This document shows positions 32,404 to 48,490 of a DNA stretch of 64,000 nt, in pieces. Positions within the stretch are counted from its first letter, which is position 1; every line of letters starts with the position of its first letter. The notes under the pieces are model-generated. The model had not been told where the DNA came from. It worked only from the letters and a program-made list of their open reading frames with translations, and ran no database searches. The DNA comes from Streptomyces halstedii (GTDB taxonomy: Bacteria > Actinomycetota > Actinomycetes > Streptomycetales > Streptomycetaceae). The translations under genes and the position numbers were made by a program. Location of the stretch: assembly GCA_000720535.1 (NCBI GenBank), contig JOAZ01000004.1:248001-312000 (forward strand), given 5' to 3'.

Positions 32404-32910
32404 ATGGGCGCTGGCACCACGCACCCCGCGGGTCTTGACCGACGCTTTCGAGCCTCGCTGGCCCGCTTCGCCACCGGCGTCACGGTGGTGACCTTCGACG
32501 GCCCGGGAGGCCGGCGCGGCTTTACGGCCAACTCGTTCATCTCGGTCTCGCTGGACCCGCCGCTGGTTCTGGTGAGCGTGGCCCGGAAGGCCCGGTCGCA
32601 CGACGAACTCGTCGACCGGCCGTTCGTGGTGAACGTGCTGGGCGCGGAACAGGAGGCCATGGCGATGCACTTCGCCGGGAGGCCCCAGCTGGAGCCCGGC
32701 TGGTCCGACAGTCCCGTCGGCCCCCGCCTGGACGGCGCGCTCGCGCACTTCGCCTGCGAGCCCTGGGCCGCCTACGACGGCGGGGACCACACCCTGTTCG
32801 TCGGCCGGGTCGTCGACTTCGACTACCGCCAGGGCGATCTGCTCGGCTTCTGCGGCGGCTCCTTCGTGACCATCCCCGAGCCCATGCTCGGCATCGAACA
32901 CCTCATGTGA
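32404..32910 (+). CDS. flavin reductase of a two-component monooxygenase (HpaC-like)
   Basis: 168 residues of the flavin-reductase-like fold. It supplies reduced FMN or FAD to the partner oxygenase. FRASLARFATGVTVVTF, GFTANSFISVSLDPPLVLVS and RPFVVNVLGAEQ are typical; DHTLFVGRVVDFDY gives the conserved glycine-histidine region. The ATG at 32404 has CGGAGG 5 nt upstream. The HpaB-type oxygenase gene follows after 26 bp, confirming the pair. Confidence 0.92.
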   Translation: MGAGTTHPAGLDRRFRASLARFATGVTVVTFDGPGGRRGFTANSFISVSLDPPLVLVSVARKARSHDELVDRPFVVNVLGAEQEAMAMHFAGRPQLEPGWSDSPVGPRLDGALAHFACEPWAAYDGGDHTLFVGRVVDFDYRQGDLLGFCGGSFVTIPEPMLGIEHLM

Positions 32911-32936
32911 CCCCACCCGTCCGCAAGGAGACCCCC

Positions 32937-34394
32937 ATGGGCGCACGTTCCGGCCAGGACTTCACCGACCGCCTGGCTCAGCGACACCCTCATGTCCAGA
33001 TCGACGGTGAGACCCTCACCGAAGGCGGGCTGGACCGCCACCCGGCCTTCGCCGGTCTGGCCCGCAGCTACGCCGCCCTGTACGACCTCCAGGTCAGCCC
33101 GGAACTGAAGGACACCCTGACCTTCACCTCGCCCACCTCGGGCGAGCGGGTCGGCACCTCGTTCCTGGTCCCCAGGACCTACGAGGACCTGGTCAAGCGG
33201 CGCACCGCGTTCAGCGCGTGGGCCAACTACAGCTTCGGCACGCTCGGCCGCACCGGCGACTACCTCAACAGCGGCCTCATGGCGCTCGCCGAGGCGTCCT
33301 CGTGGTTCGGCGAGTCCAACAAGGAGTTCGGCGAGAACCTCGTCCGCTACGTGGAGAAGGTCCGCGAAGAGGACCTTCTGACCACGCACACCCTGATCCC
33401 GCCGCAGGTCAACCGCAGTGTCGCCGCGAGCCAGCAGGCCGGCGGCATGCTGGCGGCCCGGGTGGTGGAGGAGGACGACAACGGCATCGTCGTACGGGGC
33501 GCCCGCATGGTCGCCACCATCGCGCCGATCGCCGACGAGATCCTCGTCTTCCCCTCCACGGTGCTGCGCAACACCCCGGAGGACGAGCCGTACGCCTACG
33601 CGTTCGCCGTCCCGATCGACACGCCGGGCCTGCGTCTGGTCGCCCGCCAGCCCGTGCTGCACGGCCGCGGCACGTTCGACGAGCCCCTCGCGTCCCGCTT
33701 CGAGGAGAGCGACGCGCTGGTGGTCTTCGACGACGTGCACGTGCCGTACGAGCGCGTCTTCGTGCTGCGTGACACGGCGATCTGCAACCAGTTCTATACG
33801 CGGACGTCCGCGACCGCGCACATGACGCACCAGGTGGCCACCCGCACCCTGGCCAAGTCCGAGTTCTACCTGGGCCTGCTCTCGGCGATGGCCGACGCGA
33901 TCGGCATCGGTCAGTTCGGCCACATCCAGGAGGACCTCGCCGAGGTCATCAACATCGTGGAGATCCAGAAGGCCCTGATCCAGTCCGCGGAGACCCAGGC
34001 GGCGGTCAACGAGTTCGGTGTCTTCACGCCGAAGTGGGAGCCGCTGAACACCTCCAGGAACTGGTTCCCGAAGGTGGCGCAGCGCTTCCCCGCCATCGTC
34101 CGCAAGTTCGGCGCGGGCGGCCTGATGGGCCTGCCCGGTGCCGAGGACGTGTTCGGTGCCGCGGCCGACGACGTGTCCACGTATCTCCAGGGCAAGGCGA
34201 TCGACGGCCCGGACCGGGTCCGCCTGTTCAAGCTGGCCTTCGACGCGAGCGTCTCCTCGTTCGCCGGCCGCCAGACGCTGTACGAGAACTTCTTCTTCGG
34301 CGACCCGGTCCGGATGGCCGGTGCCCTGGCGAACAGCTACGACCGCAGTGAACTCACCCAGCGCGTCTGGGACTTCGTGAAGCGCGAGGACTGA
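32937..34394 (+). CDS. HpaB-family FADH2-dependent monooxygenase, oxygenase component
   Basis: 485 residues with the acyl-CoA-dehydrogenase-like fold of 4-hydroxyphenylacetate 3-hydroxylase. The region TGDYLNSGLMAL, the sequence TTHTLIPPQVNRS, GARMVATIAPIADEILVF and the C-terminal VSSFAGRQTLYENFFFGDP are HpaB/PvcC-type landmarks. With the reductase in front it should insert oxygen ortho to a phenolic hydroxyl. The exact phenol is not given by the sequence. AAGGAG precedes the ATG by 7 nt. Confidence 0.92.
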   Translation: MGARSGQDFTDRLAQRHPHVQIDGETLTEGGLDRHPAFAGLARSYAALYDLQVSPELKDTLTFTSPTSGERVGTSFLVPRTYEDLVKRRTAFSAWANYSFGTLGRTGDYLNSGLMALAEASSWFGESNKEFGENLVRYVEKVREEDLLTTHTLIPPQVNRSVAASQQAGGMLAARVVEEDDNGIVVRGARMVATIAPIADEILVFPSTVLRNTPEDEPYAYAFAVPIDTPGLRLVARQPVLHGRGTFDEPLASRFEESDALVVFDDVHVPYERVFVLRDTAICNQFYTRTSATAHMTHQVATRTLAKSEFYLGLLSAMADAIGIGQFGHIQEDLAEVINIVEIQKALIQSAETQAAVNEFGVFTPKWEPLNTSRNWFPKVAQRFPAIVRKFGAGGLMGLPGAEDVFGAAADDVSTYLQGKAIDGPDRVRLFKLAFDASVSSFAGRQTLYENFFFGDPVRMAGALANSYDRSELTQRVWDFVKRED

Positions 34395-34508
34395 TCCGCA
34401 GGGCCCGGCGCGTGGCACGGGCGGCCGCCCCCGCCGTCGGCCGCCGCGCGCCGGGCCCGGCCCCCCAAGGGGAGTCGGCCACCCCGTTCCCTGTCCGTTG
34501 CGCATGAA

Positions 34509-34520
34509 TTCGTATACGAT
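34509..34520. promoter_or_regulatory. island palindrome 3 (TTCGTATACGAT)
   Basis: Contains the perfect 10-bp palindrome TCGTATACGA, 72 bp upstream of the first DUF3500 gene, suggesting a separate GntR-controlled promoter inside the cluster. Confidence 0.6.
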
Positions 34521-34591
34521 CGCGACTGTTCGTGCTGGACCGGGAGGCTCCGGTTTCCGGGGCCCGGTGCTCCGTACGTCAGAAGGAGACG

Positions 34592-35956
34592 ATGATGTCC
34601 CTCGGAGACTTCCGTGACCACCTTGTCGCCGCCGACGCGGCGCGACTGCGCGAAGCGCGCGGGCTGGATCCGTGGACCTACGCCGAGCCGATCCGGCAGA
34701 GCGACAAGGCGACCGGCCTCATCGACTACTGGCAACGCCTCTACTCCGAACCCTTCAAGGGCATCACCGCCGACGGGCAGGTACTCGAAGGGCGCTACGC
34801 ACTCGCCGACGAGGGATTCGACGTGGCCGGCGCCGTCACGGCCGCCAAGGGGGTCGTCGCCGCGCTGAGCGAGGGCGAACTGGCCCGGGTGCGACACCCT
34901 CTCGACGCCGCCGAATGGCGGGACTGGTACAACCCCGAGTGGCCGATGAACGCCCACGGCGTACGCCTCGACGAGGTCGCGCCCGAGGTCCGCGAAGCCG
35001 TGGCCGGCCTCATGCGTGCCTGCTTCAGCGACGACGGATACGTCAAGACCCGGCAGGTGCGCTCGGCCAACCTCTACCTCGGCGAGCTCTACGACCTGCG
35101 GAACATCATGAACGAGTGGAGTTACCACTTCCTGATGTTCGGCGAGCCCAGCGAGACCGGGCCATGGGGCTGGAACCTGTACGGGCACCACCTGGCGCTC
35201 AACTGCCTCGTCATCGGTTCGCAGATCGTGGTCTCGCCCACGTTCATGGGTGCGGAGCCGACCACGGTGGACCGCGGCGACGGCGGGAGCTTCGAGCTGT
35301 TCGAGCGCGAGGCGCTCACCGGCATCGAGCTCATGCGGTCCCTGCCGGCCGAACAGCGCCGGCTCGCCACGGCCTACCGCCGGATGAAGGACCCGGCGAT
35401 GCCCGAGGGCCGCTGGCACTTCGCCGACGAGCGGACCCTCGGCGGGGCTTACCAGGACAACCGCGTCATCCCGTACGAGGGAGTCCGCGCCCGCGATCTC
35501 ACGTCCGGGCAGCGGGAACAACTGCTCCGTGTCGTCGAGAGCTTCGTCGACTTCCTGCCCGAACGCCCGCTGCGGGCCCGGATGCGGCAGATCGAGTCGG
35601 CGCTCGACGACACCTGGTGGAGCTGGATCGGTCCCGACGACGGCGTCCAGCCCTTCTACTACCGGGTGCAGAGCCCCGTCGTCATGGTCGAGTTCGACAA
35701 CCACCAGGGCGTGTGGCTCACCAATACCGAACCCGCCCGCTTCCACGTGCACACGGTCGTGCGCACGCCGAACGGCAACGACTACGGCAAGGACCTCCTG
35801 CGGCAGCACTACGCCGCGAAACACCGGGCGGGCGCGGACCAGGCGCACGGCGAGCCGGGTGAACGCGCCGGAGCGAACGGTCACGGACCCGCGCACGAGC
35901 ACGGCACGCACCCGCACGCCGAAGAGCCGGACCGCACCGACGACCAACTCCGCTGA
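34592..35956 (+). CDS. DUF3500 family protein, long form
   Basis: 454 residues; no family function is known to me. Shared with the next gene are FGEPSETGPWGWNLYGHH with His199 and His200, a VIG...P..MGA.P strand, YYRVQSPVVMVEFDN (residues 356-370), RFHVHTVV with His385 and His387, and NDYGKDLLRQHY ending at His406-Tyr407. The invariant His/Glu/Asp set suggests a metal site or an acid-base active site. There is an N-terminal extension of about 60 residues over the second paralogue, and the last 40 residues are rich in histidine and acidic residues. AGAAGGAG precedes the ATG. It may catalyse the missing ring-opening step (inference). Confidence 0.85.
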   Translation: MMSLGDFRDHLVAADAARLREARGLDPWTYAEPIRQSDKATGLIDYWQRLYSEPFKGITADGQVLEGRYALADEGFDVAGAVTAAKGVVAALSEGELARVRHPLDAAEWRDWYNPEWPMNAHGVRLDEVAPEVREAVAGLMRACFSDDGYVKTRQVRSANLYLGELYDLRNIMNEWSYHFLMFGEPSETGPWGWNLYGHHLALNCLVIGSQIVVSPTFMGAEPTTVDRGDGGSFELFEREALTGIELMRSLPAEQRRLATAYRRMKDPAMPEGRWHFADERTLGGAYQDNRVIPYEGVRARDLTSGQREQLLRVVESFVDFLPERPLRARMRQIESALDDTWWSWIGPDDGVQPFYYRVQSPVVMVEFDNHQGVWLTNTEPARFHVHTVVRTPNGNDYGKDLLRQHYAAKHRAGADQAHGEPGERAGANGHGPAHEHGTHPHAEEPDRTDDQLR

Positions 35957-36056
35957 GCGGCCGGGGTCACACGGACACCGGTCCCGCACCGAACGGTCCG
36001 CGCCCGGCCCCGCCACGAGCGGCAGCCATGTACGAGACGAGACGACGGAGAAGCAC

Positions 36057-37220
36057 ATGGTGTCACCGATCGACCGCATACCGGACGGTGAAGGGAAACC
36101 GGGGCCGCTGACGTACGAGGCTCCGACGGCGATTCGGCAGATGCTGTTCGCCACCTGGGCGCTGCTCAACTCCCTGACCCACGGCCAGCGTGAGCAGGCG
36201 TTCCTGCCCATGGACGACGAGCGGCGCATCGACTGGGACTTCATTCCCAAGCCCGACCGCTGCGGTGTCCCGCTGTTCGCGCTGGACCGGCACCAGCGGA
36301 CCGTCGCCCACACCCTGCTCAAGTCCGGACTCAGCATCCACGGCTACAGCCAGGCCGTCTCGATCATGGCGACCGAGAACGTGCTGCGCGAACTTGAGGC
36401 CGTCCCGCGGGGTTTCGGGGCCATCGCCGGCGACTTCCGTGACCCGGAGGGCTACTGGTTCAGCTTCTTCGGCCGCCCGGGCTTCGAGGACACCTGGGGC
36501 TGGCGGGTCATCGGGCACCACATCTCCTTCAGCTACACCGTCATCGGACAGCGGTACCTCACCGTCACGCCGCTCGCGATGGGAGCCCAGCCCTTCCCGG
36601 CCGGGGTGCTCAACCCCCTGGGGGCGAACGAGGAACTGGCCTTCCGGCTCCTGGGCGCACTGGACGAGGACAAGCGGTCCACGGCCCTGATCCACCCCGT
36701 CGCCCCGGCGGACTTCGCCACCCGGCAGGTGCCCCGGGTCGGCGCCGAGGAGTGGCCCGACCACGTCGACCTCGGCATCGTCGGCTACAGCATCACCGAC
36801 GAGGACCGCGAGGCCCTGCGCTTCGTGAAGAGCGCGCCGTCCGGAATCAACGGCGCCGAGCTGTCACGGGCGGAACTCGACCTGGTGCACGAGCTGCTGT
36901 TCCGCTACTTCGACACCGTGCCCGAGGAACTCGCCACGCAGTACCGCGACGCGACGCTCGCGGAGGACCCGGAGCGCCTGACCTTCGCGTGGGCGGGCGG
37001 CACCGAGCCCGACAGCCCCCACTACTACCGGATCTCCACCGGGCGCGTCCTGGTCGAGTCCGACAACGCCGTGGCCCAGGGCCAGCACATGCACAGCGTC
37101 TGGCGCGACCTGGACAACGACCTGGGCCACGACCTGCTGCTCGACCACTACGAACACCACGGCCACCACGGCGCGCACCTGCGCCGCCGGCTGGAGAGCA
37201 CCCGGCCGGAGAGCACCTGA
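36057..37220 (+). CDS. DUF3500 family protein, short form
   Basis: 387 residues. The same pattern as its neighbour: FGRPGFEDTWGWRVIGHH with His154 and His155, then the MGAQP strand, HYYRISTGRVLVESDN (322-337), GQHMHSVW with His344 and His346, and NDLGHDLLLDHY ending at His364. The C-terminus is again histidine-rich (EHHGHHGAH). The two paralogues are clearly divergent (many substitutions outside the motifs), so they may act on different intermediates or as a heteromer. A 100-bp gap follows the first gene. No signal peptide is seen. Confidence 0.85.
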   Translation: MVSPIDRIPDGEGKPGPLTYEAPTAIRQMLFATWALLNSLTHGQREQAFLPMDDERRIDWDFIPKPDRCGVPLFALDRHQRTVAHTLLKSGLSIHGYSQAVSIMATENVLRELEAVPRGFGAIAGDFRDPEGYWFSFFGRPGFEDTWGWRVIGHHISFSYTVIGQRYLTVTPLAMGAQPFPAGVLNPLGANEELAFRLLGALDEDKRSTALIHPVAPADFATRQVPRVGAEEWPDHVDLGIVGYSITDEDREALRFVKSAPSGINGAELSRAELDLVHELLFRYFDTVPEELATQYRDATLAEDPERLTFAWAGGTEPDSPHYYRISTGRVLVESDNAVAQGQHMHSVWRDLDNDLGHDLLLDHYEHHGHHGAHLRRRLESTRPEST

Positions 37221-37224
37221 GCGA

Positions 37225-37284
37225 CGATCCGGTCGCGGTCACACGGACACACGGCGGTGTGGACGTGCGGCCGCGACCGGATCG
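37225..37284. terminator. long inverted repeat after the DUF3500 operon
   Basis: 14-bp perfect arms (cgatccggtcgcgg / ccgcgaccggatcg) are separated by 32 nt, starting 5 bp after the stop codon. Confidence 0.65.
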
Positions 37285-37352
37285 ATCCCGGCTCCGGGCC
37301 CGGGGAGGGGCACCCGCACAGGGGCGGGGAAACCAGGGAGGGGCGCACGGCC

Positions 37353-37398: not shown

Positions 37399-39192
37399 TC
37401 AGGCGGAGCTAGCCGCACCGGTCCTCGCCGGTCCGGCGTCCGCCGGTCCGGCCCGGTGCGCCAGCGAGGTCGTCAGAGCGGCCCGCAGAACGTCCTCCGG
37501 AGCCCCGGAGCCCTGCATGGCGCGGAAGGAGATGTGGTGGTCCGGCCGGACCAGCAGGCAGCCGTCCTCCTCGATCCCGCGTATCGAGGCCCAGTCGCCG
37601 TACACGTCCTCCACATCACGGCAGGGGCCGATCACCACGGTGTCCAGCGCGATCCCCAGCTCCTCGGACAGGACGCGTGCCGCGTCGCGCCATCCGTCGC
37701 CGCCGATCCCGGTCAGCACGGTGAAACGGCCGCGGCCGACCAGGTCCAGCGAGGACAGCTGCCGGCCACCGCGGGCGAGCCACACGTGGGGCAACGGGGC
37801 CCCCGGCGTCGTACAGGCCACGTGGAACAACTCCGGGTCCTCCACCGGCTGGACGACGGTCTCGTCCGGGACGATCGTCGCGGACGAGTACCGCTGTCCC
37901 AGTTCGACGCCGAGCGCGTTGAAGTTGTGGTCCTGCATCCGCACGGCCTCGGCGAGCCTGCGACGGCACTCCACGCCCTCCGGGGTGTCGGCCAGCCGGG
38001 CGTCGAGCCGCGCCTGCCCCTCCTCGACGGACTGGCCGGGCTCCAGACCCAGCGCCGCCGGGATCGCCATGAGTGCGGCCAGCGAGGTGTTGGCCCGCTG
38101 GACGATCTGCCGTGCGACGGGCGCGCGTTCCTCGGTGTAGGCGGCCAGCAGGGAATCGCCGCCCAGGCCGTCGAGCAGCAGGCGCAGCTTCCAGGCGAGG
38201 TTGAAGGCGTCCTGTACGCAGGTGTTCGCCCCGAGCCCGCCGGCGGGCGGGTGGCGGTGGGCCGCGTTGCCCGCGATCACGACCCGCCCCTGGTGCATCA
38301 CTTCGGCGTGCGCCTCATTGATCGTCCACGTGGAGCTGGAGACCGGCCGCACGTCGAGGGCCTCGTCCCCGACGTACGCGCGTACCGTCCGCACCACGGC
38401 CCCGGTGCTGGTGTCGGGCCGGCCACCGGCCGGGTCGTACGGCACGGACATCACCCACTCGTCCCACGGGCGCACGTTGACGAAGACGGCGTTGTCCACC
38501 GTGGCACCGCCTCCAGGGCGGAACACCTGATAGAGCGCGCCCGGCCGGTGCGCCGTGTAGGGCGAGAGATCGGCCTTGATCCAGTGGTTGACCATGTGCC
38601 CGAGGCCCATCATCCCCTCGACCTCGAAGCCGATCTCGCGGCACACCGCGCTGTTGTCGCCGTCCGCGCCGACCGCGTACCGGGACACCACCCGCACCCG
38701 CTCGCCGGTGACGCGGTCCCGGCAGAGCGAGACGACTCGCTCGTCCTCCTGCCGCATGGAGACCAGTTCGAGGTTGAAGACCACGTCGGCGCCGTACTCG
38801 CGCGCCGCCTCGCAGAGGATCGGCTCCAGGACGTGCTGATGGATGTTGGTCAGGTCGCAGGGGCTCGCCCCCGCGTAGTCGGACCGCCGGTCGGCCGAGG
38901 CACCCCAGGCACGTCGCCGGGCGATCTCCGGACCGGTGAAGCTCTCGGCCCACACGACCTGGCCCATGAGCGTGGCCGGCATCGCGGAGGCGATGACCCG
39001 GTCCTCGACACCGAGGTCCCGGAACACCTCCATGGTGCGCTGGTTGATGATGTGCGCCCGGGGCGAGTTGGCCAGACCCGGGTAGCGGGTGATCGCCGTG
39101 ACGCCCGCTCCCTCCCGGGCGAGCAGAGCCGCAGTCGTGAGTCCGGCCGGTCCGGCACCGACGACGAACACGTCCACATCGATGTTCTTCAC
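37399..39192 (-). CDS. FAD-dependent aromatic monooxygenase (TfdB/PheA type)
   Basis: A 597-residue group A flavin hydroxylase. VFVVGAGPAGLTTAALLARE near the start binds FAD and VGADGDNSAVCREIGF is the second motif. AGNAAHRHPPAGGLGANTC is the third; the first aspartate of the usual GD motif is asparagine here. The last about 180 residues form the thioredoxin-like domain of phenol hydroxylases. It probably hydroxylates a phenolic intermediate with NAD(P)H. GTG 39192 has GGAGG 6 nt upstream. It is transcribed alone, divergent from the FAH-RraA operon. Confidence 0.9.
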   Translation of the reverse strand: MKNIDVDVFVVGAGPAGLTTAALLAREGAGVTAITRYPGLANSPRAHIINQRTMEVFRDLGVEDRVIASAMPATLMGQVVWAESFTGPEIARRRAWGASADRRSDYAGASPCDLTNIHQHVLEPILCEAAREYGADVVFNLELVSMRQEDERVVSLCRDRVTGERVRVVSRYAVGADGDNSAVCREIGFEVEGMMGLGHMVNHWIKADLSPYTAHRPGALYQVFRPGGGATVDNAVFVNVRPWDEWVMSVPYDPAGGRPDTSTGAVVRTVRAYVGDEALDVRPVSSSTWTINEAHAEVMHQGRVVIAGNAAHRHPPAGGLGANTCVQDAFNLAWKLRLLLDGLGGDSLLAAYTEERAPVARQIVQRANTSLAALMAIPAALGLEPGQSVEEGQARLDARLADTPEGVECRRRLAEAVRMQDHNFNALGVELGQRYSSATIVPDETVVQPVEDPELFHVACTTPGAPLPHVWLARGGRQLSSLDLVGRGRFTVLTGIGGDGWRDAARVLSEELGIALDTVVIGPCRDVEDVYGDWASIRGIEEDGCLLVRPDHHISFRAMQGSGAPEDVLRAALTTSLAHRAGPADAGPARTGAASSA

Positions 39193-39396
39193 AGAGAACC
39201 TCCACCCGATCGGGAGTCGTTCGAAGGAGACAGCCGCCCCGCGTATCGCCGCCGGGCGCGCAGGGGAGAAAGGTGACCGCTGCGGACAGGGGCCCGGAGC
39301 GGGCCGACCACCGCCCCTGGCGGCGTTCCCGGACCGGCGGCCGGGCCGCGCGGGAGCGAGGCGGCGTGATTCCGGGGACGGGACGTACCTTATGGC

Positions 39397-39681: not shown

Positions 39682-41199
39682 ATGAGCGGAGAACCAGTGA
39701 CGGCAGGCGCACAGGCGGCGGAGGGGCCGGACCTCGGCTTCGGCGCGCTCCCGTCCCGTCCGGGAAAGATCATCGGCGTCCACCTGAACTACGCCTCGCG
39801 CGCGGACCAGCGGGGCCGGCGCCCCGGGCGGCCCTCGTACTTCCTCAAGCCGTCCAGCTCCGTCGGCACCGGTGGCGGCACCGTCGAGCGGCCGCCCGGC
39901 ACCGAACTCCTCGCCTTCGAGGGGGAGATCGCCCTCGTCGTCGGAACACCCGCGCGCCGGGTGAGCCGGGAGGAGGCCTGGGAGCACGTCGCCTGGGTCA
40001 CCGCGGCCAACGACCTCGGTCTGTACGACCTGCGGGCGAACGACGAGGGCTCCGGCCTCCGGGCCAAGGGCGGTGACGGCTTCACCCCGATCGGCCCGAC
40101 GCTCCTCGACGCGCGCGAGGTCGATCCGTCCGCCCTGCGGGTACGGACCTGGGTCAACGGCCGGCTCGTGCAGGAGGACACCACCGCGGGCCTGCTCTTC
40201 TCGCCCGCGCAGATCATCGCCGACCTCTCCCAGCACCTCACGCTGGAACGGGGCGATGTCATCCTCACCGGCACACCGGCCGGAGCCGGCGTCGTCGTAC
40301 CCGGTGACGTCGTCGAGGTCGAGGTTGACGCCCCCGCGACGGCGGGCGCACCCACCACGGGCCGGCTGGTGACCGAGGTGACCGAGGGCACCGTCACGTT
40401 CGACGGTGCGCTCGGCTCGCTCCCCTCGGCCGACGACACCCTGCGGACCGCCGCCTGGGGCTCACGCGAGGCGGCGGGACTCGGCGCGACGGCCGGCGGG
40501 ACCGCCCTGACCGAGGTGCTGCGCGAGAAGCTGATGCGGGCGCCCGTCGCGGGTCTCTCCGCCCAGCTGCGCAAACGCGGCCTGAACAACGTGACGATCG
40601 ACGGGGTCCGGCCCCTGCGCCCGGACACCAAGCTGGTGGGCACCGCCCGGACCTTGCGGTTCGTCCCCAACCGTGAGGACCTCTTCGCCAGTCATGGCGG
40701 CGGGTACAACGCCCAGAAGCAGGTCTTCGACAGCGTCCGCGCGGGCGAGGTCCTCGTGATCGAGGCGCGCGGCGAGAGCGGATCGGGCACCCTGGGGGAC
40801 GTCCTCGCCCTGCGCGCGCACGCACGCGGGGCCGCCGGCATCGTCACGGACGGCGGCGTCCGCGACGCCGGAGCCGTGGCAGCCGTCGGCATCCCCGTCT
40901 ACACCGCCGGTGCCCACCCCGCCGTCCTCGGGCGCAAGCACGTCCCCTGGGAGTCCGACGTGACCGTCGGCTGCGGAGGCACGGCCGTGCGGCCCGGCGA
41001 CATCGTGGTCGGCGACACGGACGGTGTGATCGTCATCCCGCCCGCGCTCGCCGACGAGGTCGTCGACGCGACCCTCGCCCAGGAGGACGAGGACGCGTGG
41101 ATCGCCGAACAGGTGGCGGCAGGCCACCCGATCAAGGGACTGTTCCCCTTGAACACCGAGTGGAGAGCGAGGTACGAGGCATGGCAGGCGGCCCGTTGA
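39682..41199 (+). CDS. fusion of fumarylacetoacetate-hydrolase-type and RraA-type domains
   Basis: 505 residues. Residues about 25-245 are an FAH-fold domain: GVHLNYASRADQRG, ELLAFEGEIALVVG with the metal glutamates, ANDLGLYDLR and LTGTPAGAGVVVPGD. Residues about 270-490 are an RraA/HMG-aldolase-like domain with LGDVLALRAHARGAAGIVTD, GGVRDAG and VVGDTDGVIVIPPAL. The first half should act as isomerase or decarboxylase on a ring-cleavage product; the second suggests a pyruvate-releasing aldolase or oxaloacetate decarboxylase. Such a pairing in one chain implies consecutive steps. The 3' end overlaps the GntR gene by 19 bp. Confidence 0.88.
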   Translation: MSGEPVTAGAQAAEGPDLGFGALPSRPGKIIGVHLNYASRADQRGRRPGRPSYFLKPSSSVGTGGGTVERPPGTELLAFEGEIALVVGTPARRVSREEAWEHVAWVTAANDLGLYDLRANDEGSGLRAKGGDGFTPIGPTLLDAREVDPSALRVRTWVNGRLVQEDTTAGLLFSPAQIIADLSQHLTLERGDVILTGTPAGAGVVVPGDVVEVEVDAPATAGAPTTGRLVTEVTEGTVTFDGALGSLPSADDTLRTAAWGSREAAGLGATAGGTALTEVLREKLMRAPVAGLSAQLRKRGLNNVTIDGVRPLRPDTKLVGTARTLRFVPNREDLFASHGGGYNAQKQVFDSVRAGEVLVIEARGESGSGTLGDVLALRAHARGAAGIVTDGGVRDAGAVAAVGIPVYTAGAHPAVLGRKHVPWESDVTVGCGGTAVRPGDIVVGDTDGVIVIPPALADEVVDATLAQEDEDAWIAEQVAAGHPIKGLFPLNTEWRARYEAWQAAR

Positions 41200-41879
41200 A
41201 CAAGGTCAAGACGCTGAGCAAGTCCCAGCAGGCGTATCACTGGATCAAGGAGCGCATCGCGCAGCAGGAGTTCACACCGGGCTACCGGCTGGTGCTCGCG
41301 ACGATCGCGGGTGAGCTGGACATGAGCGTGGTCCCGGTGCGTGAGGCGGTGCGCCAGCTCGAGGCCGAAGGACTCATCACGTTCGAGCGCAACGTCGGCG
41401 CCCGGGTGTCCATGGTCGACGACTCGCAGTACCGCACCACCATGCAGGTCATCAGCGTCGTGGAGAGCGCGGCGACCGCGCTCTCGGCACGCGAGCTCAC
41501 CGAGGCCGACCTGCGGCAGGCCCGCGCGGTCAACGAGATCATGGCGAGCCGGCTCGAACGGTTCGATCCGCGTGCGTTCTCCGCCCTCAACCAGGAGTTC
41601 CACCACATCCTCTACTGCCGGTGCCCCAACGCGCGGTTGCTGGAGATCGTCGAGTCCGAGTGGACCCGCCTGGGCCACCTGCGGGACTCGATCTTCGCGT
41701 TCGTCCCGGACCGGGCGCGGGAGTCCGTACGGGAGCACGAGGAGATCCTCGGCCTCATCGAGCGGGCCGCCCCCCTCAACGAGATCGAGGAGGCGGTGCG
41801 GCGCCACCGCAAAGGCACGCTCTCGGCCTTCATCGAACACGAACACCCCGACGAGGCGGCCGGTTTCCCGGCGCTGTGA
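41181..41879 (+). CDS. GntR-family regulator with FCD effector domain
   Basis: 232 residues. The N-terminal winged helix (AYHWIKERIAQQEFTPG, VPVREAVRQLEAEGLITFER) is followed by an all-helical FCD domain. That domain has metal-ligand histidines in NQEFHHIL, VREHEEILGLI and VRRHRKGTL. FCD regulators usually bind a carboxylic acid and recognise palindromes with a GTNTAC core; six such sites lie in the island. The start ATG 41181 lies within the end of the FAH-RraA gene, so regulator synthesis is coupled to the enzymes (autoregulation). Confidence 0.92.
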   Translation: MAGGPLNKVKTLSKSQQAYHWIKERIAQQEFTPGYRLVLATIAGELDMSVVPVREAVRQLEAEGLITFERNVGARVSMVDDSQYRTTMQVISVVESAATALSARELTEADLRQARAVNEIMASRLERFDPRAFSALNQEFHHILYCRCPNARLLEIVESEWTRLGHLRDSIFAFVPDRARESVREHEEILGLIERAAPLNEIEEAVRRHRKGTLSAFIEHEHPDEAAGFPAL

Positions 41880-41939: not shown

Positions 41940-42725
41940 ATGCTGCCCGCCGAGACGATCGCCGCACTCGCCGAGGAGCTCGCCGACGCGGAGCGCGAAC
42001 GCGGGGTCATCCCGCGTCTCACGGCCCGTCATCCCGAGGCGACGGTCGATGACTCCTACGCGATCCAGGGCGTGTGGCGCGACAGGAACATCGCCGCGGG
42101 CCGCCGCCTGGTCGGCCGCAAGATCGGTCTGACCTCCCGGGCGATGCAGGCCGCCACCGGGATCACCGAGCCCGACTACGGCGTCATGTTCGACGACACC
42201 GTGTGGGAGAGCGGGGCGGTCATCCCGTACGACACCTACTCGAACGTACGCGTAGAGGTCGAGCTGGCCTTCGTGCTCGCGGCACCTCTCGAAGGTCCGC
42301 ACTGCACGCTCTTCGACGTCCTGCGCGCGACCGAATTCGTCACGCCCGCCCTGGAGATCCTCAACTCCCACTTCGAGATGGAGGGGCGCACCATCGTCGA
42401 CACCATCGCCGACAACGCCGCCTACGGCGGGGTGGTGCTGGGCGGTTCGCCGATGGGGCCCGGCCAGGTCGACCTGAGATGGGTGTCCGCGCTGCTGTAC
42501 CGCAACGAGAGCATCGAGGAGACGGGAGTCTCGGCCGGTGTCCTGAGCCATCCGGCCACCGGGGTCGCCTGGCTCGCCAACAAGCTCCACCAGCACGGTG
42601 CGCGCCTGGAGGCGGGAGAGACCGTCCTGGCGGGTTCGTTCACCCGCCCGGTGTGGGTCGAGCGCGGGGACAGCGTCCTGTGCGACTACGGAAAGATGGG
42701 AACGATCTCGTGCCGTTTCGTCTGA
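41940..42725 (+). CDS. 2-keto-4-pentenoate hydratase / 2-oxohept-4-ene-1,7-dioate hydratase (HpaH type)
   Basis: A 261-residue metal-dependent hydratase adding water to a 2-hydroxydienoate from meta cleavage. The FAH-superfamily metal ligands lie in NVRVEVELAFVLA. VGRKIGLTSRAMQ, EPDYGVMFDD and GVAWLANKLHQHG are landmarks of the HpaH/MhpD group. LEILNSHFEMEGRTIVDTIADNA and the match over the whole length favour HpaH over MhpD. GAAGGAG stands before ATG 41940. The next gene overlaps by 16 bp, its product acting on the product of this one. Confidence 0.9.
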   Translation: MLPAETIAALAEELADAERERGVIPRLTARHPEATVDDSYAIQGVWRDRNIAAGRRLVGRKIGLTSRAMQAATGITEPDYGVMFDDTVWESGAVIPYDTYSNVRVEVELAFVLAAPLEGPHCTLFDVLRATEFVTPALEILNSHFEMEGRTIVDTIADNAAYGGVVLGGSPMGPGQVDLRWVSALLYRNESIEETGVSAGVLSHPATGVAWLANKLHQHGARLEAGETVLAGSFTRPVWVERGDSVLCDYGKMGTISCRFV

Positions 42726-43525
42726 AGGCCCCGTTCCGCGACGCGCTGCGCGACGCCGCGCCCCGGCCGCTCGCCGGGATGTGGGTGTGCTCGGGCAGCG
42801 CGACCGTGGCCGAGATCTGTGCGGGCGCGGGCCTGGACTGGCTGCTGATCGACATGGAGCACGGCCCGAACGGGCTCGGGTCCGTGCTGGCGCAGCTCCA
42901 GGCGGTCGCGGCCCACCCGGTCGTCCCCCTGGTACGGGTGCCCGCCAACGACCCCGTGACGATCAAACAGGTACTCGATCTGGGCGCCCAGAACCTGCTC
43001 GTGCCCATGGTGTCCTCGGTGGCCGAGGCGCGGGCGGCCGTGGAGGCGGTGCGGTATCCGCCGCGCGGCCGCCGTGGCGTCGGGTCCGCCCTCGCGCGCT
43101 CGGCGCGCTGGAACCGCGTGGACGACTACCTCACCGAAGCCGACCGGTACACCTCGCTGTTCGTGCAGGTGGAGACGGTCGCGGGGGTGGAGGCCGCCGC
43201 CGGGATCGCGGCCGTCGACGGGATCGACGGCGTCTTCGTGGGGCCGTCGGACCTGGCGGCCTCGATGGGCCTCATCGGCCGGCAGACCCACCCGGACGTC
43301 ACCGCCGCCGTACTGCGGGCCTTCGACGCGGTCCGGGAGGCGGGCCTGCCGGTCGGGGTCAACGCCTTCGACCCCGCCGTCGCGCAGGCCTACATGGACG
43401 CGGGGGCCACCTTCGTCCTCGTCGGCGCCGACGTCGCCATGCTGGCCCGGGGCTCGGAGGCCCTGGCCGCCCGTTTCACCGCCGCCGCCACCGCCGCCCC
43501 GGACGCGGACCGCGCGAGCTACTGA
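42710..43525 (+). CDS. HpcH/HpaI-type class II aldolase
   Basis: 271 residues. It splits a 4-hydroxy-2-oxo acid (4-hydroxy-2-oxoheptane-1,7-dioate in the homoprotocatechuate pathway) into pyruvate and an aldehyde. DWLLIDMEHGPN is the first active-site segment. VQVET supplies a metal glutamate and FVGPSDLAASMG a metal aspartate. LVRVPANDPVTIKQVLDLGA is also typical. GTG 42710 lies inside the end of the hydratase gene, so the pair is translationally coupled. Confidence 0.92.
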   Translation: MPFRLKAPFRDALRDAAPRPLAGMWVCSGSATVAEICAGAGLDWLLIDMEHGPNGLGSVLAQLQAVAAHPVVPLVRVPANDPVTIKQVLDLGAQNLLVPMVSSVAEARAAVEAVRYPPRGRRGVGSALARSARWNRVDDYLTEADRYTSLFVQVETVAGVEAAAGIAAVDGIDGVFVGPSDLAASMGLIGRQTHPDVTAAVLRAFDAVREAGLPVGVNAFDPAVAQAYMDAGATFVLVGADVAMLARGSEALAARFTAAATAAPDADRASY

Positions 43526-43560: not shown

Positions 43561-43733
43561 CTCCCTCCCTCCCGAGAGTGCCCGGCGACGGCTTCTCCGG
43601 CAGGGGTGCGGCATCTCTGTGCGGCAGCCATGAACCCGCTGTGACCTGGGTGAATCCTGTGCGTGGAGACCCGGGGTGTGCCGTTTTCCCGCCCCCGTCC
43701 GGAGCCCGTCGCACCCTTCCTCCGATGTGCAAT

Positions 43734-43745
43734 ATCGTGTACGAT
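43734..43745. promoter_or_regulatory. island palindrome 6 (ATCGTGTACGAT)
   Basis: Identical 12-mer to the one at 31136, 113 bp upstream of the dienelactone hydrolase ATG. Confidence 0.6.
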
Positions 43746-43857
43746 CCAGAAAAACGTGATCAGGGCCGAAGAGGGCGGTCGCCGGGAAACGGCGGCAGCA
43801 GTCCGTGTCCCGGCCCGTACGCCCTCGACGACACCTCCGAGCGAGGAACGGCGACAT

Positions 43858-44595
43858 ATGAGTGATCAGGTCTCACGAGACGTCCCCTACACGCACGACG
43901 GCACACGGATGATCGGACACCTGTGTGCGCCGGCCGCTTCCGAAGGCCTCCCCGTTGTCCTGCTCGTCCACGACGCCTTCGGTCTGGGCGACGAGATGAT
44001 CGCCACGGCCGGCCGGATCGCTGACCTCGGGTACGCGGTGTTCGCGGCCGACCTGTGGGGTGACCGCACGCTTCCCAGGACGCACGCGGAGATCGGCCCG
44101 CTCATGGCAGGGCTGGCGGGGGACCGGCCACGCTGGATGGCACGGGTCGAAGCGGCCCGGGTGGCCGCGGCCGGGCAGCCCGAGGCCGACGCCTCCGCGA
44201 TCGCCGTCCTCGGTTACTGCTTCGGCGGTTCCACCGCGCTGGAGTACGTACGCACCGGAGGCGAGGTGCGGGGCGCGGTGAGCATCCACGGCGGCCTCGA
44301 CACCGTCGAGCTGGACTGGAGCGCGCCCACCCCCGGCGCGTCGGTCCTCCTGTGCACGGGGGCGGACGACCCCATGGCCCCCCTCGGGACGCTGGCCCGC
44401 CTCCGGACAGCCATGAGCGCGGCGGGCGTCGAGTGGGAGGTGGACCTGTACGGCGCCACCAAGCACGCGTTCACCAACCCCAGGGCGGCGAGCGACGACG
44501 CCGCCTACAACCCCCGCAGTGCCGCACGGGCGTGGGAGTCGTCCACCGGGTTCCTTCGCGCGCTCTTCCCCGGCACGCGGCCCGCCCCACGCTGA
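43858..44595 (+). CDS. dienelactone hydrolase family protein
   Basis: A 245-residue alpha/beta hydrolase. Cys121 in GYCFGG is the nucleophile typical of dienelactone hydrolases, Asp170/Asp171 in CTGADDP the acid and His203 in TKHAFTNP the base. LLVHDAFGLGDEM is the oxyanion region. It opens a lactone or cleaves an ester in the pathway; classical dienelactone hydrolase is an ortho-pathway enzyme, so its presence beside meta-pathway enzymes hints at an unusual intermediate. It is the first gene of the third island operon. Confidence 0.88.
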   Translation: MSDQVSRDVPYTHDGTRMIGHLCAPAASEGLPVVLLVHDAFGLGDEMIATAGRIADLGYAVFAADLWGDRTLPRTHAEIGPLMAGLAGDRPRWMARVEAARVAAAGQPEADASAIAVLGYCFGGSTALEYVRTGGEVRGAVSIHGGLDTVELDWSAPTPGASVLLCTGADDPMAPLGTLARLRTAMSAAGVEWEVDLYGATKHAFTNPRAASDDAAYNPRSAARAWESSTGFLRALFPGTRPAPR

Positions 44596-44680
44596 CCCCG
44601 CACCGATCGCGCGGCACCGGACCGGCCGGTGGCGCGGGGCCGGTCACGTCACCACCCACCCGCAGAAGAACGAGGACGCC

Positions 44681-45952
44681 ATGCTCGACATCGCCATCAT
44701 CGGCGCCGGCCCCTGTGGGCTGGCCACCGCGCTGCGCCTGCACCAGCGGGGACTGCGCCCCCGCGTCTACGAAGCGGTCCCGGAGCTGCGCCCCCTCGGC
44801 GTCGGGATCGACGTCAAGGTCTACGGCACGCGCGAGCTGGACGAACTGGGCCTGCTCGACGGTTTCCGGGAGATCTCCGTCGACGCCGACGAGTCGATCT
44901 TCTTCAACAACCACGGCCAGGAGATCTACGCCGAGAAGTGCGGCGTCCACATGGGTTACGAGCACGAGCAGCGCTTCGTGCACCGCGGCACCTTCCAGAT
45001 GTTCCTGTACCGCGAGGTGCTGGAACGACTCGGCGAGGACGCGGTCGTCCTGGGCGTGCGGACGACCGGCTACACGCAGGACGAGGACGGGGTCACCCTC
45101 CAGGTCGTGCACACGGACGGCACCGAGGGCGAGGTGCGCGCGGACGTCGTGATCGCCGCGGACGGCATCAACTCGGTGGTCCGCAGGCAGATGCATCCCG
45201 AGAGCGCGGACCCGAAGTACTCCGGTCTCACCATGTGGCGCGGCACGACGCTCATGGAGCCGTTCAAGACCGGGGGCACGATCCTGCACATCGGAGACCC
45301 CCGCGTCTCCAGCCTCATCGTCTACCCGATCGAGAACGACTTCGAGGGGACGGGTCTCACGCTCGTCAACTGGGTCGCCGAGGCCACCCGCGGCGAGTCC
45401 ACCGAGGACTGGAACCAGCGCGGTTCCGTCGACGAGATCCTGCCGTACTACGACACGTGCGAGATCGACTTCATCGACGTCCAGAAGATGCTCACCGAGG
45501 CACGCGAGGTGTTCCTCTTCCCGCTCATCGACCACGACCCGCTGGACAGCTGGGTCGACGGCCGGGTCGTGCTGGTCGGTGACGCCGCGCACGCGATGTA
45601 CCCGCGAGGCGGCAACGGCGCGTGTCAGGCGATCGTGGACACGCGCGTCGTCGCCGAGAAGCTCGGGACCGTCAGCGACCCCCACGAGGCACTCCTGGCC
45701 TTCGAGGCCGAGCGCCTGGAGGGCGTCAACCGGATCGTGCTGGCCAACCGTGGCGAGGGGTACGAGGTCATCCGCCGCATGGTCGCCGAGCGGACCGGCG
45801 GCGAACGGTTCGACGACATCGAGGCGGTCCTCCCGCTCGCGGAGGCCGACGAGATCTTCAGCAAGTACCACCAGCTCGTCGGCCAGCGGCGCACCGACGC
45901 GGGGGGCAAGCCGATGGCCGGCTTCCGCACCTCGGCGGCCGAGTCCGCCTGA
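44681..45952 (+). CDS. FAD-dependent monooxygenase (PhzS/salicylate-hydroxylase-like)
   Basis: 423 residues. IAIIGAGPCGLATALRLHQRG binds FAD, VIAADGINSVVRRQ is the second motif, and VGDAAHAMYPRGGNGACQ the third with its aspartate intact. It lacks the C-terminal domain of the other flavin monooxygenase in this island. PhzS-like enzymes carry out decarboxylative or simple hydroxylation of aromatic or heteroaromatic acids. The substrate is unknown. GAACGAGGACG precedes the ATG, and the SDR gene follows after 34 bp. Confidence 0.88.
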   Translation: MLDIAIIGAGPCGLATALRLHQRGLRPRVYEAVPELRPLGVGIDVKVYGTRELDELGLLDGFREISVDADESIFFNNHGQEIYAEKCGVHMGYEHEQRFVHRGTFQMFLYREVLERLGEDAVVLGVRTTGYTQDEDGVTLQVVHTDGTEGEVRADVVIAADGINSVVRRQMHPESADPKYSGLTMWRGTTLMEPFKTGGTILHIGDPRVSSLIVYPIENDFEGTGLTLVNWVAEATRGESTEDWNQRGSVDEILPYYDTCEIDFIDVQKMLTEAREVFLFPLIDHDPLDSWVDGRVVLVGDAAHAMYPRGGNGACQAIVDTRVVAEKLGTVSDPHEALLAFEAERLEGVNRIVLANRGEGYEVIRRMVAERTGGERFDDIEAVLPLAEADEIFSKYHQLVGQRRTDAGGKPMAGFRTSAAESA

Positions 45953-45986
45953 AAGCCCCCGTCACCCACCGAAAGGAGCGCTCCGC

Positions 45987-46772
45987 ATGGACCTCGGACT
46001 GACCGGACGGACGGCGTTCGTCGCGGCCTCGTCCCAAGGGCTCGGGTACGCGTGCGCCCGTTCCCTGGCGCGCGAGGGCGTCGCGGTCACACTCAACGGC
46101 CGCGAGCGGACCAAGCTCGCCGCCGCGGCCGAGGCGCTCCGTGAGGAGACCGGCGGCGGCGCGCGGATCTCCTGGGTCGCCGCCGACCTCACCACCCGCG
46201 AGGGCCGCGCCGCGATCGTGGCGGCCGTACCGTCCCCGGACGTCCTCGTCACCAACAACGCCGGTCCGCTCCCCGGCACCCTCGACGACTGGGACGAGGA
46301 GGCGCTCGTCGGCGCCCTGCGCGCCAACATGGTGCCGGCCGTCCAGCTGATGCGCGCCTACGTCCCCGGCATGCGCGAGCGGACGTTCGGCCGGATCGTC
46401 AACATCACCTCGGCGATGGTCAAGGGCCCCGCCTACGAGATGGGGCTCTCGACCTCCGCCCGGTCGGCCCTCACCGCGATCAGCAAGTCGATCAGCAACG
46501 ACGTCGTGGCCGACAACGTGACGGTCAACAACCTGCTCCCCGAGCGGATCGACACCCCGCGGCAGGAGTTCATGGTCCAGCGGATGATGGCCGCGCACGG
46601 GATCGGCCGGGACGAGGCCCGCGGGCGTATCGCCTCGACCGTCGCGGCGGGCCGGCTCGGCCGGCCGGAGGAGTTCGGCGACGCCTGCGCGTTCCTGTGC
46701 AGCGCGCAGGCCGGATACATCTCGGGCCAGAACCTCCAGCTCGACGGCGGCTCGTACCGGGGGGTCCTGTGA
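45987..46772 (+). CDS. SDR-family protein lacking the YxxxK pair
   Basis: 261 residues of the short-chain dehydrogenase fold. The cofactor loop (TAFVAASSQGLGYACARSL) and the NNAG motif (VLVTNNAGPLPG) are present. Ser142 in NITSAMV is in place, but where Tyr and Lys should stand the sequence has Ser155 and Arg159 (GLSTSARSAL). Other SDR proteins with LSxxxR at this place exist, so the gene is not broken, but classical dehydrogenase chemistry is doubtful. ATG 45987 has AAAGGAG upstream. Its stop overlaps the next GTG. Confidence 0.85.
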   Translation: MDLGLTGRTAFVAASSQGLGYACARSLAREGVAVTLNGRERTKLAAAAEALREETGGGARISWVAADLTTREGRAAIVAAVPSPDVLVTNNAGPLPGTLDDWDEEALVGALRANMVPAVQLMRAYVPGMRERTFGRIVNITSAMVKGPAYEMGLSTSARSALTAISKSISNDVVADNVTVNNLLPERIDTPRQEFMVQRMMAAHGIGRDEARGRIASTVAAGRLGRPEEFGDACAFLCSAQAGYISGQNLQLDGGSYRGVL

Positions 46773-47236
46773 GTACGGTCATGAGCGCGGACGCCGCGAC
46801 CAGGGCCGAACTGCTCGACCTGGAGGAGCGCCGTCGCGCCGCCCTCGTCGCCGTGGACCTCCCCGCGCTGGAGGACATGTTCGACGAGTCGCTCGTACAC
46901 ATCCACGCCCCTGGGCTCACGCACAGCAAGGCCCAGTTGCTGGAGCACGTCGCGACCCGTCAGGCCTACCTCGACTCGGCGCGGGGCCGGCTGAGGATCC
47001 GGATCGTCGGCGACGTGGCCGTCATGACGGGCCGGCTGACCAACCGGCTCCGTTCCCCCGAGGGGGGCGAGCGGGTCCTCGGCGGGGTCGTCACCCAGGT
47101 GGTGCGGCGCTGCGAGGACGGCGCGTGGCGGTTCCTCAGCTTCCAGATGACGCCGGACGGCGAACACGTATGGCCCGCGATGCCCTCGGAGCTGGAGGCA
47201 CGGGACGAGACCACAGGGAAAGACGGACACCCATGA
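46769..47236 (+). CDS. SnoaL/NTF2-like protein
   Basis: 155 residues of the cone-shaped alpha+beta barrel fold (DUF4440/nuclear transport factor 2-like). LLDLEERRRAALVAVDLPAL, FDESLVHIHAPG, and TQVVRRCEDGAWRFLSFQ match. Members include isomerases, dehydratases and small ligand binders. It starts with GTG overlapping the SDR stop and ends overlapping the ATG of the next gene, so it is locked into this operon. ATG 46781 is a possible alternative start. Confidence 0.8.
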   Translation: MSTVMSADAATRAELLDLEERRRAALVAVDLPALEDMFDESLVHIHAPGLTHSKAQLLEHVATRQAYLDSARGRLRIRIVGDVAVMTGRLTNRLRSPEGGERVLGGVVTQVVRRCEDGAWRFLSFQMTPDGEHVWPAMPSELEARDETTGKDGHP

Positions 47237-48087
47237 AGATCGCACGATTCCGCGTCGCCGACGGCCCCGTACGGCTCGGACGGGTCGACGGCGACCGGGT
47301 CACCGACATCTCCGACGTCCCCGGTGTGGGCACGTCGCTGCGCGCGATCCTGCCGGCGCTCGGCACACTCCGGGACGCCGTCCTCGCGGCCGACGGCCCG
47401 AGCCTGCCGCTCGACGCCGTCGCGCTCCAGGCGCCGGTCGACGACCCGCAGAAGTACCTCGGCATCGGCATGAACTACAAGGAGCACGCGGAGGAGGCGC
47501 GCCTGGCGGGCGTACCGATCCCGACCAGCCAGATGTGGTTCAACAAGCAGGTGTCCTGCATCGCCGGACCGTACGACGCGATCCACAAGCCGGCGTTGTC
47601 GGACGAGCTCGACTACGAGGTGGAGCTGGGCGTCGTCATCGGGCAGCGCTGCCGGCACGTGGCCGTCGAGGACGCGCGCTCCGTGATCGCGGGCTACCTC
47701 GTGACCAACGACGTGTCCGTGCGCGACTGGCTGGCCAAGCGGTCGCCCACCTTCACGCTCGGCAAGTCCTTCGACACCCATGGACCGATCGGCCCGTGGC
47801 TGACGACGGACGACGAGATCGCCGACCCGCACGACCTGCGGATGCGGCTGTCCGTGAACGGCGAGGTCCGCCAGGAGTCGCCCACCAACGACATGATCTA
47901 CGACATCTACGAGCAGATCGCCTACCTCTCGCAGGTCATGACGCTCATGCCGGGCGACATCCTCGCCACCGGCACCCCGGCCGGGATCGGCGCCCCCACC
48001 GGGCGCTTCCTCAGGGCGGGAGACATCGTGCGGGCCGAGATCGAGGGTCTCGGGGTGATCGAGAACCATGTCGTCGCCGCACCCTGA
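47233..48087 (+). CDS. fumarylacetoacetate hydrolase family protein
   Basis: 284 residues with an N-terminal small domain and the FAH catalytic domain. KYLGIGMNYKEHAEEARLAG, ELDYEVELGVVIG with two metal glutamates, VTNDVSVRDW with the metal aspartate, and ILATGTPAGIG are diagnostic. It is of the same group as 5-carboxymethyl-2-oxo-hex-3-ene-1,7-dioate decarboxylases, fumarylpyruvate hydrolases and related C-C hydrolases. It is the second FAH unit in the island, beside the fusion protein at 39682. An ATGA overlaps the previous gene. Confidence 0.9.
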   Translation: MKIARFRVADGPVRLGRVDGDRVTDISDVPGVGTSLRAILPALGTLRDAVLAADGPSLPLDAVALQAPVDDPQKYLGIGMNYKEHAEEARLAGVPIPTSQMWFNKQVSCIAGPYDAIHKPALSDELDYEVELGVVIGQRCRHVAVEDARSVIAGYLVTNDVSVRDWLAKRSPTFTLGKSFDTHGPIGPWLTTDDEIADPHDLRMRLSVNGEVRQESPTNDMIYDIYEQIAYLSQVMTLMPGDILATGTPAGIGAPTGRFLRAGDIVRAEIEGLGVIENHVVAAP

Positions 48088-48490
48088 CCGCGTGCCGCGC
48101 CGTGTCAGCGTCTACCTCCCCGGCTTCGGGCACGCCAACCCCATCCCGGCGGCGAGCCGCATCGGCCCTTTCCTCGCCTCGGGTGCCCTCACGGGCCGTG
48201 ACCCGGCCACCGGTGAGATGCCGGAGGATCTTCAAGCGCAGTGCGCGAACGTGTTCGCCCACGTCCGCGCACTCATGGTCGCCGTGGACGGCGCGACGGA
48301 CGACATCCTCAAGATGACGTTCCGGCTCGCCCGATACCGCGACCGCGACGCGCTCAACCGGGAGTGGACCACGATGTTCCCCGATCCCGCCCACCGGCCC
48401 GCGCGCCAGGTGGTCGCGGCGCGGCTGGACGGTGGCGCGCTCGTCCACTGCGACCTCATGGCGGTCCTCGGCGACCCGGGAGGCCTGTGA
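48068..48490 (+). CDS. RidA (YjgF) family protein
   Basis: 140 residues. The family's conserved arginine stands in HRPARQVVAARL, and the trimer-core segments (RIGPFLASGALTGRDPATG, QCANVFAHVRALMVAVDGA) are present. RidA enzymes hydrolyse enamines/imines; in aminophenol degradation a member acts as 2-aminomuconate deaminase. Its place as last gene of a catabolic operon, overlapping the FAH gene by 20 bp, suggests a pathway-specific deaminase and thus a nitrogen-bearing substrate (inference). Confidence 0.87.
   Translation: MSSPHPDRVPRRVSVYLPGFGHANPIPAASRIGPFLASGALTGRDPATGEMPEDLQAQCANVFAHVRALMVAVDGATDDILKMTFRLARYRDRDALNREWTTMFPDPAHRPARQVVAARLDGGALVHCDLMAVLGDPGGL

Follow-up and report, generated by a model that had tools for sequence, protein, structure and literature searches.

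In the breakdown of aromatic compounds the difficult step is opening the ring, and it is usually recognized by the presence of a few dioxygenase families. The gene island described here extends from position 32404 (flavin reductase gene) to 48490 (RidA gene) of the window, the 64,000-nucleotide stretch of Streptomyces halstedii DNA that was analyzed (GenBank assembly GCA_000720535.1, contig JOAZ01000004.1, positions 248,001 to 312,000; 72% G+C, from a genome of 7.7 Mb), and it encodes two DUF3500 proteins, DUF3500-A and DUF3500-B, among hydroxylases and lower meta-pathway enzymes. We tentatively propose, at a probability a little short of even, that the island encodes the aerobic breakdown of a polyhydroxylated aromatic acid, with both DUF3500 proteins, rather than a classical dioxygenase, as ring openers. 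That at least one of the two opens a ring is, in our estimate, slightly on the probable side.

One described system that the island resembles is the homoprotocatechuate (4-hydroxyphenylacetate) meta pathway, HpaBCDEFGHI, with which it shares HpaB and HpaH equivalogs and HpaI-like and HpaG-like genes. In contrast to that pathway, the genome carrying the island has no HpaD and no HpaE above cut-off, and the island adds two DUF3500 genes, a dienelactone hydrolase (DLH) family gene and a second FAH-family gene. Clusters in Rhodobacterales, such as that of Thioclava (locus L160), contain the same flavin adenine dinucleotide (FAD) hydroxylase, DLH, short-chain dehydrogenase (SDR), NTF2, FAH, HpaH, HpaI, IclR, GntR and DUF3500-A genes. 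The Thioclava cluster differs in having HpaD instead of DUF3500-B and in the presence of an amidohydrolase gene, and no HpaB was found in its stretch.

A second point of comparison is fungal. According to a 2025 review, the Aspergillus DUF3500 protein AN10530 is proposed to open the ring of 1,2,3,5-tetrahydroxybenzene, yielding 5-hydroxydienelactone, in a pathway fed by the gallate hydroxylase PhyA. According to that review and to the gallate paper, A. niger continues to grow on gallate after deletion of 17 putative ring-cleavage genes; in the gallate paper, the 20 most-raised genes in a repressor mutant include those for a FAD-binding monooxygenase, an extradiol dioxygenase and a SnoaL-like protein. 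In FAMeDB (2026, PMC13094099), the tetrahydroxybenzene pathway is seemingly confined to fungi; the paper prints "DUF3550" beside IPR021889, where DUF3500 is apparently meant by context. The likeness to the island, judged from the description of the fungal pathway and not from its sequences, is a DUF3500 protein as proposed ring opener fed by a hydroxylase, while the bacterial island adds a second DUF3500 paralogue, HpaBC, HpaH/HpaI and DLH. No case of bacterial DUF3500 ring opening was found in the literature searched. The original prediction for this DNA, made from the sequence alone, had raised the possibility of a new type of ring-opening enzyme: the fungal precedent, the gene neighborhood and the exchange of DUF3500-B with VOC genes speak for such an enzyme, but DUF3500 ring opening as such has already been proposed in fungi, and what is new is the bacterial case and the exchange with extradiol genes.

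Results

Both DUF3500 genes lie directly behind HpaB, as originally predicted: DUF3500-A at 34592–35956 (+) and DUF3500-B at 36057–37220 (+). Their products are the only PF12006 matches in the whole genome (329 and 224.5 bits, respectively; gathering cut-off, 27.2). In a Pfam-A scan at E 0.001, each matched PF12006 alone, and neither matched the profiles of known ring-cleaving dioxygenases (VOC extradiol, LigB, intradiol and cupin). The predicted occurrence of GHH, E-x-D-N, H-x-H and H-Y in identical order in both proteins was borne out, and the alignment shows that the shared motifs are no coincidence. In an alignment of 107 rows (residues numbered as in DUF3500-A, counted from window position 34592), GHH, E367, H385, H387 and R391 are conserved in 17 of 17 rows from loci L031–L046 and L059, in all 63 rows from L047–L109, and in seven DUF3500-B rows, one incomplete row excepted. 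D369 is likewise conserved, with one E among the 63 rows.

Although the original prediction treated the two proteins alike, they are not equivalent. In a tree of 126 sequences, DUF3500-A of the window belongs to a 17-member clade (support, 0.991; hereafter clade A) and DUF3500-B to a 28-member clade that includes ApmL (support, 0.997), and E222 of DUF3500-A is replaced by Q in DUF3500-B of the window and by N in ApmL. AlphaFold2 models of the two proteins, with input alignments of 56 and 44 of the 87 listed DUF3500 stretches, reached a predicted local distance difference test score (pLDDT) of 90.6 for DUF3500-A and 81.8 for DUF3500-B, and structure searches with both models returned ApmL as the sole strong match. 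The fold and a core motif (GHH, E-x-D, H-x-H and R) are common to ApmL and both island proteins. ApmL differs in being biosynthetic, in its PDB title of dehydratase, in the N at E222 and in missing the C-terminal NDxG...H segment.

Gene neighborhoods were compared using loci taken from a contig scan for DUF3500 relatives (79 of 580 confirmed relatives). Neighbors scoring at least 60 bits were counted in 17 clade-A loci and in 50 distant DUF3500 loci (L060–L109); 24 hand-picked "other" loci were not used as a control, and the groups do not include survey and B-type loci (L143, L145–L159, L164, L167 and L177–L188) or repeat fetches from a genome already represented. Within the stretches seen, VOC genes and DUF3500-B are mutually exclusive in the 17 clade-A loci: a VOC gene occurs within 12 kb in none of the six loci with DUF3500-B and in nine of the 11 without it. 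The six are the window, Streptomyces sp. SID10853 (L044; the closest relative of the island among the matches listed, with DUF3500-A at 86%), and four loci (L031–L033 and L045) in genomes named Mangrovihabitans, Actinoplanes (two) and Winogradskya. In all six, HpaH, HpaI and an RraA-containing protein accompany DUF3500-B, and no HpaD was found in the stretches fetched beyond it. In Rhodobacterales (L040, L042, L043, L160 and, for genome G407, L190), HpaH, HpaI and FAH genes occur with HpaD and one DUF3500-A.

The same pattern appears at the level of genomes. None of eight genomes with DUF3500-B (the six above, G559 and G530) contains an HpaD equivalog (best scores of 47 to 197 bits; cut-off, 321), and no DUF3500-B orthologue was found in five genomes with HpaD (G407, G408, G410, G411 and G268), whose further DUF3500 matches score at most 84 bits against it; for Thioclava, coverage was of the plasmid only. 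Among these, G268 is an actinobacterium with HpaD and a single DUF3500 protein, which is not DUF3500-B. DUF3500-B thus appears to take the place of an extradiol dioxygenase. No VOC gene was seen at eight clade-A loci, namely the six that carry DUF3500-B, L034 and L140, the last on a contig of only 7.8 kb.

Clade-A loci also share a set of neighbors. An FAH gene lies within 10 kb of DUF3500-A in 17 of 17 clade-A loci, in each case even within 5 kb, compared with 1 of 50 distant loci (Fisher p 5e-15, a value that overstates independence, given the relatedness of the loci and the taxonomic differences between the groups). Within 10 kb, 16 of 17 clade-A loci have a FAD hydroxylase gene and 15 of 17 have an NTF2/DUF4440 gene, each of which occurs in 0 of 50 distant loci. 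The 16 and 17 loci, respectively, have the FAD hydroxylase and FAH-like company expected of an AN10530-type DUF3500 protein; Martins et al. (2024) reportedly place an FAH-like gene in the fungal cluster. In the compact Pseudomonas operon L034, DUF3500-A occurs with MFS, IclR, DLH, SDR, DUF4440, FAH and chemoreceptor genes, and no dioxygenase-type gene lies within 10 kb of it. The LigB seed had no match in any neighborhood scanned, and in a PF02900 search of 22 genomes the nearest same-contig LigB matches were 21 kb (G403) and 25 kb (G405) away.

Among island proteins, a Pfam profile search found no match to PF00903, PF00775 or PF02900, and for these three profiles the predicted lack of an extradiol, intradiol or LigB gene in the island holds (no genome-wide search was made for gentisate-type cupins). 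On the island's contig, they give only a gene for a single-domain VOC (glyoxalase-superfamily) protein of 174 amino acids (5773–6297, +), which is the sole PF00903 match of the window and lies 26 kb from the island. Genome-wide matches outside the island comprise 26 stretches for PF00903, 3 for PF00775 and 1 for PF02900. Five ring-cleavage-type proteins of this genome were inspected: a protocatechuate 3,4-dioxygenase, a BphC/HsaC-like protein slightly below the BphC cut-off, a DOPA-dioxygenase-like LigB protein below its cut-off, a VOC protein without a clear family, and an intradiol-like protein. An HpaD equivalog of the VOC type was not found in the whole genome (best score, 47.3 bits; cut-off, 321.4; the LigB-type HpaD model was not searched separately), and no genome match to HpaE exceeded the cut-off (best score, 527.5 bits against 638.35, on another contig).

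The remaining genes of the island were assigned with Pfam and NCBIfam, and the hydroxylases and lower meta-pathway genes named in the original prediction were all located. Divergent from the island is an IclR-type regulator (31602–32291, −; Pfam HTH_IclR and IclR_C). The first genes of the island encode an HpaC-like flavin reductase (32404–32910, +; PF01613; best NCBIfam match HpaC_Thermus at 118 bits, below the cut-off of 200) and HpaB, a 4-hydroxyphenylacetate 3-hydroxylase-type oxygenase (32907–34394, +; equivalog TIGR02309, 570.1 bits, above the cut-off of 480.2). Beyond the DUF3500 genes, FAD aromatic hydroxylase 1, with a Rng_hyd_C domain, is encoded on the minus strand (37399–39195; PF01494 and PF21274; start codon uncertain, with the frame open to 39414). 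It is followed by a fusion of an HpaG-like FAH half and an RraA-like half (39682–41199, +; PRK12764, 805 bits, above the cut-off of 444; HpaG-C-term, 151 bits, below the cut-off of 276.4), a GntR/FCD regulator (41187–41879, start approximate, +; PF00392 and PF07729), the 2-oxohept-4-ene-1,7-dioate hydratase HpaH (41940–42725, +; equivalog TIGR02312, 352.8 bits, above the cut-off of 351.5) and an HpaI-like aldolase (42710–43525, +, with a GTG start at 42710 deduced from the bases; PF03328, E 1.4e-46; TIGR02311, 305.3 bits, below the cut-off of 368.8).

The second half of the island carries equal weight to these lower meta-pathway genes. It consists of a DLH family protein (43858–44595, +; PF01738), FAD hydroxylase 2 with a single FAD_binding_3 domain (44681–45952, +; PF01494; PRK07538, 462.4 bits, above the cut-off of 400), an SDR (45987–46772, +; PF13561), a DUF4440/SnoaL-like protein (46781–47236, +; PF14534), a second FAH-family hydrolase (47233–48087, +; PF01557, E 1.2e-72) and a RidA-like protein (48068–48490, +; PF01042).

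Discussion

In the proposed route, HpaBC and FAD hydroxylases 1 and 2 would add hydroxyl groups, or exchange a carboxyl for a hydroxyl group, to give a tri- or tetrahydroxybenzene-type ring. DUF3500-B would open the ring that feeds the FAH-RraA fusion, HpaH and HpaI, in the slot that HpaD or a different extradiol dioxygenase of the VOC type occupies in proteobacterial relatives. DUF3500-A would open a second, tetrahydroxybenzene-like ring, the product of which would pass to DLH, SDR, DUF4440 and the second FAH protein, as proposed for fungi. If the cut carbons bear hydroxyl groups, acids and no aldehyde would be formed, which would explain why the cluster has no HpaE dehydrogenase. A dehydratase-like acid-base site could also support hydrolytic opening of an over-hydroxylated ring in its keto form, in line with the original prediction, and the data are compatible with this as well as with O2-dependent cleavage. 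Gene content, neighborhoods, the tree, the conserved residues and the exchange pattern are direct results; we infer the substrates, the products, the ring-opening activity, the split into two branches, and any use of O2 and a metal as opposed to hydrolysis. Support for the role of DUF3500-A is weaker than for the slot of DUF3500-B: the exchange with VOC genes points mostly to DUF3500-B, and DUF3500-A may either open a ring as well, as in fungi, or have an auxiliary role.

Several observations weigh against ring opening by both proteins. A dioxygenase-type gene lies within 10 kb in 7 of the 17 clade-A loci (six VOC and one intradiol), and nine of the 17 have a VOC gene when the range is widened to 12 kb and past the edge of one locus. 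HpaD accompanies DUF3500-A in L039/L190 (just outside the L039 edge, at 9.8 kb), L040, L042, L043 and L160; in Rhodobacterales, the Thioclava (335.9 bits) and G410 (329.6 bits) proteins pass the HpaD cut-off, and those of G407, G408 and G411 (310 to 318 bits) are slightly under it. In Pseudomonas and Paraburkholderia, an orthologous VOC protein of 307–327 amino acids, with PF00903 as its sole family match, is encoded beside the DUF3500-A operon (L035 and L046, within 10 kb; L200 and L201). The genomes of L036 and L037 encode an orthologue of the L035 and L046 proteins (620 to 636 bits) 11.4 kb from DUF3500-A, a finding that makes the proposal less likely and moves its weight from DUF3500-A to DUF3500-B. 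Given this VOC company in Proteobacteria, DUF3500-A need not be a ring opener, and it may not be one at all. The suggestion that DUF3500 genes might keep company with HpaH and HpaI without dioxygenases therefore fails for DUF3500-A, but it stands for the loci with DUF3500-B. The L034 genome has no orthologue of the 307–327-amino-acid protein among its HpaD-model matches.

Other points against the proposal concern the exchange and the fungal precedent. Few lineages lie behind the exchange pattern, and in G530 the DUF3500-B protein that adjoins HpaH/HpaI is a C-terminal half (residues 202–384). In G559 the pairing is swapped: DUF3500-B occurs with DLH/FAH, and HpaH/HpaI are on another contig with an A-like protein, so DUF3500-A and DUF3500-B may serve steps of one pathway. 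The swap also suggests that both halves of the island form one regulon. The ring-opening step by AN10530 is itself, in the review cited, a proposal.

Alternatively, the DUF3500 proteins may be acid-base lyases (dehydratases, tautomerases or C–O hydrolases) catalyzing a step immediately before or after ring opening, and ring cleavage itself would fall to a dioxygenase from elsewhere in the genome, for example the BphC/HsaC-like, unclassified VOC or protocatechuate enzyme. We consider this explanation doubtful but a serious contender. The only solved DUF3500 relative, ApmL (Amc20; PDB 9x86) from amipurimycin biosynthesis, is entitled "dehydratase ApmL" and is nearer to DUF3500-B (E 8e-36) than to DUF3500-A (7e-16); by analogy, and with the core motif in common, both island proteins may have a non-opening role. 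The VOC genes at nine clade-A loci point the same way, as do the ring-cleavage-type genes on other contigs of the S. halstedii genome, including one on contig C3 whose product bears a distant likeness (59 bits) to the Pseudomonas VOC protein. However, none of these genes encodes an HpaD equivalog, and the island's own contig offers only the distant 174-amino-acid VOC gene. Six DUF3500-B loci show no VOC gene where relatives without DUF3500-B have one, L034 has no dioxygenase-type gene within 10 kb, and the persistence of gallate use in fungi deprived of 17 putative dioxygenases also counts against this explanation.

Less favored, and in our judgment unlikely, is a single ring opener: either DUF3500-B in the extradiol slot with DUF3500-A performing a common step, or DUF3500-A as in fungi with DUF3500-B dehydrating or tautomerizing the product. 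The separate clades and the replacement of E222 are consistent with such a division, as is the swapped pairing in G559. The occurrence of DUF3500-A with VOC genes in Proteobacteria and with DUF3500-B in Streptomyces and Micromonosporaceae would suit DUF3500-B alone, and the L034 operon, with DUF3500-A alone, would suit DUF3500-A. Yet the fungal proposal and L034 favor one protein and the exchange favors the other, and jointly they fit two openers better. A role of the island in making or modifying a natural product, as the origin of ApmL in an antibiotic cluster and one B-like protein amid P450 and decarboxylase genes might suggest, is very improbable, since HpaH, HpaI, FAH, DLH, IclR, GntR and MFS genes typically belong to catabolic pathways and much of the gene set recurs in Pseudomonas, Paraburkholderia and Rhodobacterales.

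Extending the two-opener proposal beyond this island, it is possible, though we hold this with still greater reserve than the proposal itself, that bacteria have a class of ring-opening enzymes on the DUF3500 fold that is unrelated by profile to known dioxygenases, in which DUF3500-B displaced the extradiol enzyme in actinobacterial meta-type pathways and DUF3500-A underlies a bacterial tetrahydroxybenzene-type pathway, of a kind so far regarded as fungal. If so, clusters now judged incomplete would become complete, bacterial proteins could serve to test the class proposed in fungi, and genome searches could reveal degraders. A concrete and cheap test of function lies in the exchange of DUF3500-B and extradiol genes.

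DUF3500 genes also occur in other settings. The widespread group L060–L109 (Acidobacteria, Chloroflexi, Bacteroidota and others) retains the conserved residues with nearly no aromatic-pathway neighbors, and the family may have a different role there. Five actinobacterial genomes (G396, G397, G398, G399 and G400) contain 4 to 7 DUF3500 matches each, and approximately 7 to 10 kb from two further DUF3500 copies (L197 and L199) there is a VOC gene whose product scores 64 to 89 bits against HpaD. On a Streptomyces plasmid (L164), a B-like DUF3500 protein is encoded amid P450, pyridoxal phosphate decarboxylase and acyl-CoA dehydrogenase genes, perhaps a natural-product cluster. Outside clade A, on plasmids of Paraburkholderia, Rhodococcus and S. 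chartreusis (L161, L162 and L163), DUF3500 genes lie near Rieske oxygenase and PDR/VanB reductase genes, neighbors that would fit demethylation of methoxylated aromatics. A singleton list for Rhodococcus qingshengii RL1 (PMC8416521) includes MhpA-like hydroxylase, MFS, HTH, DUF3500 and FCD genes, the locus tags of which are nearly consecutive.

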